Part shown: in pieces, positions 25,435 to 27,722 of the stretch
Numbering within the stretch: position 1 is the first letter of the stretch
How the letters are laid out: each line of letters opens with the position of its first letter
Source of the DNA: Phycisphaerales bacterium
Lineage (GTDB): Bacteria; Planctomycetota; Phycisphaerae; Phycisphaerales; SM1A02
Assembly: GCA_022447205.1 (NCBI GenBank)
Contig: JAKVBQ010000014.1
Location: 14,555-76,377, forward strand
Direction of reading: 5' to 3'
Length of the DNA: 61,823 bases
The notes under the pieces: model-generated
The model's database searches: none
Told to the model about the DNA's origin: nothing
Seen by the model: the letters and a program-made list of their open reading frames with translations, nothing else
Program-made: the position numbers and the translations under genes

Positions 25435-25505
25435 CCCCGTATTCTAGGGACCTGACGTTGATGAGCCAGTTCCAGCGCGTATCCTTGTGATCCATGGTGG
25501 AGAAC

Positions 25506-26291
25506 ATGAAGACAACACCCCGCCGAACCCCCGCCGCGCTCCTCCTGCTGGGTGGGATCCTGTTCGCTGGAGGATGCTCGGATCCGACCTACGACACCTC
25601 CACCCCGCAGGCCGCGATCGACTCGATGCAGGCGATGCTCGAGGACGAGCGTCCGGACCTCCTGCCGGATCTCCTGTACGTGGAGCCGCGGCCGATCACC
25701 TTCGATGACGGCGTCACCGAGGCCAGTGCGATCGAGGACGTCCGGGCCAAGCTCTCCGACATGCTCGCCCAGCTCTGGCGGGTCGCCCGCAGGTTGCAGT
25801 CGGAGTTCCCCGACGAGGTCGTCGAGGAGGGCGAGCGCACCATGGTGAGCTTCACCGACGACGCGTTCGGCGACTGGTTCGGCGCGGTGCTCGCGGATCC
25901 CTTCGCGGTCCTCCAGGAACAACGCGACCGCATCGTGGTCGAGGACATGTACGACGGGACCGCCGCGGTCCTGATCGACGACGATCCCGCCTTCGGCGGT
26001 TTCGTGTCGATGATCGAGACCCCCGACGGCTGGCGGATCTCCCTGCCCGTCCAGTACGCGCAGAGCAGCGAGTTCTGGCCGCAGACCCGGTATGAATGGT
26101 CGGTGATCGCCTCGATGCTGCTCGGCATCGAGAACTCGCTCTCCGATTTCGAGAGCGAACTGAATCGAGGCGGCTTCCGGAGTCTCGCCCATGCCAGCGA
26201 ACGTGCCGGGCGACTGCTCGGCGAGTCGGTCATCGTCCAGTCGGTGATCTACGGCATGATGAAGCGTGGCGACGAAGAAGACACGGGATGA
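25506..26291 (+). CDS. Lipoprotein of unknown function
   Basis: 261 aa. Signal peptide with lipobox: the hydrophobic run LLLLGGILFAGGC puts the lipidated Cys at residue 24. The remainder is acidic and mostly helical, with no motif I recognise: AAIDSMQAMLEDERPDLLPDLL, a coiled stretch around LWRVARRLQSEF, and a C-terminal half rich in Glu/Arg helices. An ATG four codons upstream is an alternative start. The next gene, a phosphatase/cytochrome-like fusion, begins inside its stop codon (ATGA), so the two are probably translated together and may act together in the periplasm. Confidence 0.75.
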   Translation: MKTTPRRTPAALLLLGGILFAGGCSDPTYDTSTPQAAIDSMQAMLEDERPDLLPDLLYVEPRPITFDDGVTEASAIEDVRAKLSDMLAQLWRVARRLQSEFPDEVVEEGERTMVSFTDDAFGDWFGAVLADPFAVLQEQRDRIVVEDMYDGTAAVLIDDDPAFGGFVSMIETPDGWRISLPVQYAQSSEFWPQTRYEWSVIASMLLGIENSLSDFESELNRGGFRSLAHASERAGRLLGESVIVQSVIYGMMKRGDEEDTG

Positions 26292-27148
26292 TCCGTCTTG
26301 CCTGCCTGATCCTGGTCTTCATGTCGACCGCCGATGTTCCGGACGGGGTGGAACTGAAACCGGTTCCCGTGCCCGGGATCGAGCGGGTCATGCGCGTGGA
26401 TGACAGTTTGCTGGTGGGGTCGGCACCGGATCCGAACGCCTACCGTGCACTTCGGGAACTCGGGGTCCGGGTCGTCCTGAGCGTCGACGGCATGCCACCC
26501 GATCTCGAAATCATCCGATCTCTGGGCCTTCGGTCCGTCCATCTCCCTATCGAGGACGGCGGCATCGAGCCGGAGCGTATCCGCTCCCTGGTCCGCCTCC
26601 TGGGTGAACGACCCGGCTTGATCTACGTCCATTGTCACCATGGTCGCCACCGCGCTCCCGCGGTCGCCGCGATCCTCTGGATGCTTCGGACCGGAGCAGC
26701 TCCCGAATCGGCGCGGCGGATCCTCGAGCAGGCGGGCACCTCGCCCACCTACCCGGGGCTCTGGGACGCGGTGCGGACGCATGTCGCTCCCGTCGGGACG
26801 TGTGCGGACGCGCCCCTGCCCGCCCGGGTCGAGGTGGCTGGTGTCGCGGCCTCGATGGTCGCGATCGACCGACTGCGGGACCGGCTCGATGACTGGGCTG
26901 AACGAAGCGCCGGGGCCTCCGGCGCGGAAGCGGTCCTCCTCCTCGAACACCTCCGGGAGATGAAGCGGCTCGATCCCGGGGGGCATGCGGAGCAGGCCGG
27001 ATGGGCCGTCGATCTCCGGGCATCGATCACTGCTGCGGAAGCGCTTGCCGCGGCGACGGGGACTGGTGGATCGCCCCAGCCTCGTCAGGAACTCCTGGAC
27101 CGACTGGATGCTTCCTGCATCGGGTGCCATGCCCGCCATCGGGACTGA
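26288..27148 (+). CDS. CX5R (dual-specificity-like) phosphatase fused to a cytochrome-c'-like CxxCH domain
   Basis: 286 aa. The start ATG overlaps the lipoprotein stop. A short hydrophobic N-terminus (LACLILVFMSTA) suggests export. Residues 30-165 resemble a small cysteine phosphatase of the DSP/PTP fold: GSAPDPNAYRALRELGVRVV, a VSVDGMPPD loop, VHLPIEDGG, and the P-loop VHCHHGRHRAP with Cys116 and Arg122 (CX5R). Residues 180-286 are a run of amphipathic helices ending in CIGCH (277-281), a covalent heme-attachment motif placed at the C-terminus as in four-helix cytochromes c'. Such a fusion is unfamiliar to me. A thiol phosphatase plus heme suggests redox control or a changed chemistry (inference). 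Confidence 0.72.
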   Translation: MIRLACLILVFMSTADVPDGVELKPVPVPGIERVMRVDDSLLVGSAPDPNAYRALRELGVRVVLSVDGMPPDLEIIRSLGLRSVHLPIEDGGIEPERIRSLVRLLGERPGLIYVHCHHGRHRAPAVAAILWMLRTGAAPESARRILEQAGTSPTYPGLWDAVRTHVAPVGTCADAPLPARVEVAGVAASMVAIDRLRDRLDDWAERSAGASGAEAVLLLEHLREMKRLDPGGHAEQAGWAVDLRASITAAEALAAATGTGGSPQPRQELLDRLDASCIGCHARHRD

Positions 27149-27278: not shown

Positions 27279-27722
27279 ATGTTGCAAGTCACTCGAAACC
27301 AGCCTGCCCTTGCCCCGATGAGGGCCATGTTCAACAACCTTGCCGACGGTCTTGCGGGACCGTCCGCGACCCGAAGCCTGCCCCTGGACATCCTCGAGCG
27401 GGATGATCACTACGCGATCGTGGCTTCCGTACCGGGACTCACCCGTGACCAGGTCAGCGTCGAACTCGAGAAGGGGGTCCTTTCGATCTCCGCCAACGCG
27501 GTGACCGACGTGAAGGACGATGCAGGCGAGGCATGCGGCACCGACGGCGACTGCTGCTGCCGCATTCGACAGGAACGATTCACCGGTGCCAGCAATCGAC
27601 GGGTTCGGCTCCCGGTCGACATCGACGAGCAGTCCGTGGAGGCCTGCCTCGAGAACGGCCTGCTGACCGTCACCCTCCCCAAGCCGGAGGCAAGCGGACC
27701 CATGAGGATCGCGATCACCTGA
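27279..27722 (+). CDS. Hsp20/alpha-crystallin small heat-shock protein with Cys-rich insert
   Basis: 147 aa. The start ATG has GGAGG 8 nt upstream. The alpha-crystallin domain runs from about residue 33 (SLPLDILERDDHYAIVASVPGL) to 135 (ENGLLTVTLPKP, the usual GVLTV-like strand). Between strands lies an insert with four cysteines (C86 and C92-C94: GEACGTDGDCCC), and a fifth Cys is at 123. Cysteines are rare in Hsp20s, so the insert could bind metal or sense redox state (inference). The C-terminal RIAIT replaces the usual IxI motif. A bidirectional terminator follows. Confidence 0.9.
   Translation: MLQVTRNQPALAPMRAMFNNLADGLAGPSATRSLPLDILERDDHYAIVASVPGLTRDQVSVELEKGVLSISANAVTDVKDDAGEACGTDGDCCCRIRQERFTGASNRRVRLPVDIDEQSVEACLENGLLTVTLPKPEASGPMRIAIT

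Follow-up and report, generated by a model that had tools for sequence, protein, structure and literature searches.

A gene in the window (the whole stretch of DNA analysed here, 61,823 nucleotides from a Phycisphaerales bacterium) codes for a protein in which a DSP/PTP fold is fused to a class II cytochrome c-like heme domain, and this fusion is real and conserved in relatives. The gene lies at 26288..27148 on the + strand (286 aa plus the stop; homologues are known). A sequence-only reading of this DNA had described a 286-aa frame with Cys116...Arg122 and a C-terminal CIGCH, and the frame does contain H115-C116-H-H-G-R-H-R122 and C277-I-G-C-H281 where that reading had placed them. Its proposal of a CX5R phosphatase fold joined to a cytochrome c′-like (class II) heme bundle is supported by the predictions for both domains. 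By itself the window protein is ambiguous, and it is its homologues that settle its identity.

The computation supports both domains, their regular linkage, the conservation of their motifs, and the presence of System II genes in the genome. A serious candidate for the function, if somewhat short of probable, is a periplasmic phosphatase-fold enzyme whose activity a covalent His/Met heme would control in response to redox state or to NO/CO. Slightly more tentatively, the homologues may form an undescribed heme c phosphatase family of Planctomycetota and Verrucomicrobiota, in which a His/Met heme would switch the PTP Cys, or, more boldly, a family of PTP-fold, heme-wired redox enzymes.

Conservation of the Pairing of the Two Domains

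Matches to the window protein occur in 48 of 101 genomes at E ≤ 0.001 (its own genome included), and a contig search gave 80 loci: 61 in Planctomycetota, 15 in Verrucomicrobiota, one in Candidatus Hydrogenedentota, and three unassigned. Homologues from named strains include L095 of Rhodopirellula rubra and L036 of Limnoglobus roseus. Among 110 homologous loci (30 from the genome search and the 80 from the contig search), a CxxCH near the C terminus is found in 107. The remaining three (L076, L109, and L110) hit the end of the contig before the motif, so that CxxCH is present in 107/107 uncut loci. The contig loci were found via short exact patterns, and since IYVHCHHG and DASCIGCH were among them, the test was repeated with the phosphatase half only.

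With this half, 222 of 392 Planctomycetota genomes match at E ≤ 1e-6. Among the matches listed, 141 loci were examined (30 given directly and 111 fetched), leaving out G006:C17, whose heme half matches the heme-domain profile. CxxCH is present in 124 of these, three run into a contig end first, and 14 are without the motif, which makes 124 of the 138 uncut loci. A different P-loop is carried by 13 of the 14 loci without CxxCH: in 11 (L249–L259) it reads HCxxGxDRT, and L245 (HCHAGRHRA) and L246 (HCKNGKHRS) are single-domain proteins with related P-loops and no heme motif. The close homologues keep the CxxCH that had been read in the window protein, with the sole exception of L248, which has the family P-loop HCHHGKHRG and lacks CxxCH. 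Chance occurrence of CxxCH is ruled out by its conservation in the two sets of uncut loci. Behind L248 comes a lipoprotein-like ORF on the same strand, truncated where the contig stops; the fusion may exist here in split form. In L247, the P-loop His is replaced by Thr (TCETGRDRA) with CxxCHxxxR intact, possibly an indication of altered catalysis.

In a phosphatase-domain tree of 86 rows (a thinned set and a quick tree, with several long branches including that of the window protein), the heme label needs a single change (SH-aLRT 92), and none of 500 shuffles gives a number as low. L245 and L246 branch close to the base of the fused proteins, where support for the tree is weak. The heme domain was also searched for with its own profile, which matches 30 of 61 related genomes at E ≤ 1e-4; its 31 matches fall on known fusion places in 29 cases. 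Of the other matches, the one in G003 is in a frame that is cut by the contig end and yet shows the end of a phosphatase domain; the one in G004 covers 62 aa where a contig begins, and is interpreted as the remainder of the fusion that is cut in that genome. A heme domain acting as a mobile module was not seen in the 61 genomes at this threshold, as it matches only this fusion. The pairing being kept in nearly all members of the clade, and the heme domain being found elsewhere in none of the 61 genomes, the link between the two domains is probably functional.

The conserved residues were taken from an alignment of 76 sequences, that is, 75 of the 80 contig loci and the window protein (L038, for which no start was chosen, and the cut loci L076, L085, L109, and L110 were left out). 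One further alignment consists of every second row of it (38/76), and an enlarged alignment has 233 sequences, with at least three genes present twice (G085, G025, and G089) and later rows picked for having CxxCH, which is why it offers no independent count of CxxCH. Invariant in the 76 rows are G44, P47, V66, D67, P87, I112-Y113-V114-H115-C116-H117-H118-G119, R122, G157, L158, M190, C277, C280, H281, and R285, the last five being the only invariant residues of the heme half. The unbroken stretch 112–119 is partly due to the use of IYVHCHHG as a search pattern; among the 233 sequences, Ile stands at position 112 in 125 and His at position 117 in 192.

The Phosphatase-Fold Domain and Its Active Site

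The DSP/PTP-fold domain spans residues 26–178 (26363..26821, +), as assigned from profile and fold matches. Its P-loop, HCHHGRHR (residues 115–122; 26630..26653, +), identified from the sequence and the alignments, is followed by Ala-Pro, and C116 and R122 are kept in 233/233 sequences of the enlarged alignment. The window protein matches the Pfam family Tc-R-P marginally (27.8 bits for a cut-off of 27), and 75 of the 76 aligned members match it at E ≤ 1. In structure searches, the whole AlphaFold2 model matches TpbA and DUSP23. TpbA (PA3885), a periplasmic DSP of Pseudomonas aeruginosa, is the best profile and Foldseek match to the fusion protein: the whole alignment matches it at 7.6e-12, and the DSP half has a Foldseek E of 4.5e-7 and a VIA Z of 16.9 (rmsd 3.4, 155 aligned). 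In contrast with the fusion, TpbA has no heme domain; its P-loop reads HCKHGNNR, and the Arg is followed by Thr, which is Ala in the window protein.

The general-acid loop (residues 85–93; 26540..26566, +) reads HLPIEDGGI in the window protein and HLPIGYDGI in the family consensus. Asp105, named as the general acid of TpbA in a passage of PMC4409338, aligns to position 91. This position is Asp in 142 of the 233 fusion-family members, whereas in the other 91 the Asp is absent; the window protein has D90-G91, with Gly at the aligned column and an Asp one residue off. Several positions are better kept than 91, namely Tyr90 (232/233), His85 (231), and Asp67 (231). At position 90, Asp replaces Tyr in the window protein alone among the 233 sequences. 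The residue that follows Arg122 is Gly in 162, Ser in 63, and Ala in 8 of the 233 sequences, the window protein having Ala. A Ser or Thr at this place is usual in DSP/PTP enzymes, if not universal.

The protein may have phosphatase activity. Since the general acid is absent from many members, and so is the Ser/Thr of the P-loop, the active site fits a chemistry that is slow or modified, and this putative enzyme may be no ordinary phosphatase. Asp67, Tyr90, and a YxGL motif occur as well in the heme-less L245 and L246. Hence they do not reflect the heme, and judging by these sequences they are probably older than it.

The Heme Domain and the Ligation of the Heme

The class II cytochrome c-like four-helix domain occupies residues 178–286 (26819..27145, +), according to profiles and fold matches. 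Its heme c attachment motif, CIGCH, recognised by conservation, provides Cys277, Cys280, and His281 (27116..27130, +), and is extended to CxxCHxxxR by Arg285 (27140..27142, +), which is present in 226 of the 228 sequences that reach it. The four-helix bundle that the sequence-only reading had called for beside CxxCH is predicted by AlphaFold2: in the model of the whole protein (pLDDT 90.2, pTM 0.85), the DSP core is followed by helices at 185–205, 212–228, 237–257, and 266–284. The C-terminal 109 residues modelled alone give a pLDDT of 85.4 and a pTM of 0.80.

The window protein scores 13.5 bits with PF01322, below the cut-off of 26.5, and 72 of the 76 aligned members match this family at E ≤ 1 (best 2.9e-9). 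Profile matches include cytochromes b562/c′ at about 3e-5 with the whole alignment; searched by itself, the heme half matches cytochromes c′ from 1.2e-6. No stand-alone PF01322 protein turned up in the window's genome, a result that carries no weight, as 0 of 14 controls were detected. In the VIA comparison of the heme domain, NaxLS comes first (6r6o_A, Z 13.8, rmsd 1.9, 99 aligned), and the list includes cytochromes c′ (Z about 12–13.4, rmsd 3.3–3.5, 106–107 aligned) and cb562 (Z about 12). A tie with cb562 and some cytochromes c′ is also reached by 9grx_6, an unrelated chain (Z 12.1), and helical bundles can reach such values of Z by a common arrangement. With Foldseek, the heme domain alone gives nothing at E ≤ 0.001, and three cytochromes c′ lead at E 0.03–0.05 (best 0.031). 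It is VIA Z, profile, and motif taken together that carry the match to class II cytochromes.

By the rule of CxxCH, His281 is the predicted proximal ligand of a heme that may be covalently bound. The predicted distal ligand is Met190 (26855..26857, +), which is Met in 231/231 sequences that reach it and, by the VIA ranges, is in register with the distal positions of b562 and NaxLS. In the VIA ranges for b562, residue 7 of the domain model pairs with residue 1 and residue 108 with residue 106, which puts Met190 (model residue 13) on residue 7 and His281 (model residue 104) on residue 102. Residues 7 and 102 are the Met and His ligands of b562. In the NaxLS ranges, residue 6 pairs with residue 25, which puts Met190 on residue 32, the site of C32 mutants in PDB titles. 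These ranges give end points only, so that the register of Met190 assumes no gap inside helix A; HMMER, by contrast, aligns residue 193 instead of 190 with Met7 of b562. Residue 193 is variable (Ile in 106, Leu in 42, Val in 34, and Met in 23 of 233).

Because an invariant Met190 falls at the distal position in b562 and in NaxLS, the sequences favour six-coordinate ligation by His and Met, as in c556 and b562, over five-coordinate ligation as in cytochrome c′. Of the cytochrome c′ layout claimed by the sequence-only reading, the four-helix bundle and the C-terminal CxxCH are upheld, and the open heme site of that family becomes less likely here. Gas could still bind to a His/Met heme, as there are sensors in which Met gives way to NO or CO.

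Export and Proposed Working of the Fusion

The suggestion that the protein is exported fits its N terminus, where a hydrophobic stretch (residues 1–16; 26288..26335, +) is a probable export signal, as judged from the sequence and its homologues. A hydrophobic stretch (mean KD ≥ 2.0 in the first 32 residues) is found in 94 of 109 homologues, including the window protein, versus 44 of 1090 internal control 32-mers, with the export count biased upward because start codons were scripted with a preference for hydrophobic N termini. A lipobox-like motif is present in 39 of the 109 homologues (window protein included). Homologues of CcsA and ResB, of the System II cytochrome c maturation, lie near each other on one contig of the window's genome.

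A working of the fusion can be proposed as follows. An exported PTP/DSP-fold enzyme, periplasmic or lipid-anchored, would hold one covalent heme c in its class II cytochrome domain, with His281 as the proximal and probably Met190 as the distal ligand. The heme would sense the periplasmic redox state, or would bind NO or CO through the displacement of Met190. The bundle and the linker (residues 177–180, covarying with 70–77) would then move, and the activity or the redox state of Cys116 would change. In the covariation analysis (Neff 196 for 249 columns), the only credible pairs are the linker pairs 77–179, 73–180, and 70–180, and those involving column 177 may reflect phylogeny. An interface between heme and active site was sought in these data and set aside, the credible between-domain pairs being confined to the linker. 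The two domains may nonetheless be coupled, with redox state or NO/CO as the signal.

Three other workings were weighed against this one. We regard it as unlikely that the protein is a PTP-fold oxidoreductase, in which the P-loop Cys would bind an oxyanion or a thiol (sulfur or phosphorus) and the heme would carry electrons, making it a redox enzyme and no phosphatase. The conservation of Cys, Arg, and His while the general acid and the P-loop Ser/Thr vary is consistent with such an enzyme, as are weak matches to the sulfur-transferase PTP-fold families TIGR01244 (E 0.048) and Blh (E 0.14) and the match of 55 of the 76 members to BLH_phosphatase at E ≤ 1. Six-coordinate His/Met hemes are, besides, mostly electron carriers. 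However, the best matches of the protein are phosphatases, there is no recurrent adjoining sulfur or respiratory gene (COX4_pro occurs in 2 of 54 upstream neighbours), and the single-domain L245 and L246 have similar P-loops without heme.

The heme might also be a relay that sets the redox state of the catalytic Cys (thiol versus sulfenic or sulfenamide) in an oxidising periplasm, with no sensing involved. The PTP Cys is oxidation-prone, and the covalent tether and the high pTM of the whole model, which suggests a fixed arrangement, would be expected of such a relay. As the canonical single-domain relatives (L249–L259) and TpbA manage without heme, we find this account improbable. Slightly more improbable is a pseudophosphatase or scaffold, whose P-loop would bind, or be slowly phosphorylated, as in PRL, and whose heme bundle would be structural or serve in docking. 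This would account for the Gly or Ala after Arg122 in 170/233 sequences (RAP in the window protein), for the frequent absence of the general-acid Asp (91/233), and for L247, whose heme motif is intact although its P-loop His is Thr. PRL proteins, which are slow in turnover, also have RAP. It fits poorly with Cys and Arg being kept in 233/233 sequences, and a merely structural role presumably would not need an invariant distal Met. The phosphatase-fold enzyme controlled by its heme is the favoured reading.

Gene Neighbourhood

The fusion gene starts within the stop of an upstream lipoprotein gene (25494..26291, +), in an ATGA overlap; the sequence-only reading had called the two translationally coupled. 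The same reading had proposed the lipoprotein as a possible partner of the fusion, which did not hold among genomes, and the lipoprotein is probably no functional partner. It has no NCBIfam match and no credible Pfam match. A homologue is found in 20 of 41 genomes and adjoins the fusion in just three, namely the window's genome (G000), G001, and G013. In G009, the two genes lie on one contig about 256 kb apart, and G002 has the lipoprotein homologue and no detected fusion. A two-gene periplasmic signalling module with this lipoprotein, for which the ATGA overlap and the adjacency in G001 and G013 speak, is in view of this distribution ruled out as a general arrangement and very improbable altogether, the more so as few neighbours of the homologues are on the same strand within 100 bases.

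Such neighbours number 17/66 upstream and 14/63 downstream with longest-ORF gene calls, and the fusion gene is often alone. No Pfam family recurs beyond 3/54 upstream or 3/53 downstream neighbours, a count that omits 12 of the 66 upstream and 10 of the 63 downstream neighbours, mostly short ones. A conserved gene partner was rejected: the largest neighbour cluster covers 10 of 110 loci, and its representative is on the opposite strand and probably not a gene. Downstream of the fusion gene in the window, a frame at 27280–27722 resembles a small heat-shock (Hsp20) protein, as judged by eye only.

An association with NO reduction was searched for through COX1-family frames of 759–864 aa, which may be quinol NO reductases (qNOR). 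There is no positive link: among the matches listed and counted by hand, of the 29 genomes that have a long frame, 11 have a fusion match, versus 37 of the 72 others, and two of those 11 matches are weak and partial. This count gives no support to a tie between the fusion and NO reduction.

Comparison with Known Systems

Several known proteins resemble one half of the fusion. The closest fold to the heme domain is NaxLS (Kusta0087/Kusta0088), a heterodimeric cytochrome c of an anammox planctomycete. Its subunits stand alone and its distal ligand is Cys, where the fusion has Met190; C32M/C101M mutants of NaxLS are named in a PDB title. Cytochromes c′ (PF01322) have in common with the heme domain the four-helix bundle and the C-terminal CxxCHxxxR, but they differ by an open five-coordinate heme, against which the invariant Met190 of the fusion argues, and by the lack of a phosphatase fusion. 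The class II cytochromes of the b562/c556 type, on whose b562 positions 7 and 102 Met190 and His281 fall, are also stand-alone proteins. The natural heme of b562 is not covalent, and the b562 chains matched in the PDB are largely engineered cb562 variants with CxxCH.

Two systems bear on the signal. NaxLS, the nearest heme fold, is called NO-binding in a passage of PMC11897245, which keeps NO alive as a signal for the fusion. A class of NO-binding sensors with c-type heme, sCache_heme (DUF3365/Tll0287), is described in an excerpt of PMC12889525. Like the fusion, these have an extracytoplasmic c-type heme domain within signalling proteins, but the domain has the Cache fold and occurs with histidine kinases, chemoreceptors, and cyclic-di-GMP enzymes, and the excerpt mentions no PTP fusion (PMC12889525).

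The sequence-only reading knew of no described system of this form, and none came to light in the literature either: among open-licence PMC papers, no description was found of a phosphatase joined to a heme domain or of a heme-containing, heme-regulated, or heme-dependent phosphatase. The main text of the Planctopirus essential-gene paper contains neither "phosphatase" nor "cytochrome". Heme-based sensors control kinases, cyclases, and transcription factors. In the fusion, the pairing of a heme domain with a phosphatase fold may give the cell a means of adjusting a phosphatase to redox state or to a gas, and it raises the testable question of whether heme redox or gas binding gates a PTP active site outside the cytoplasm.
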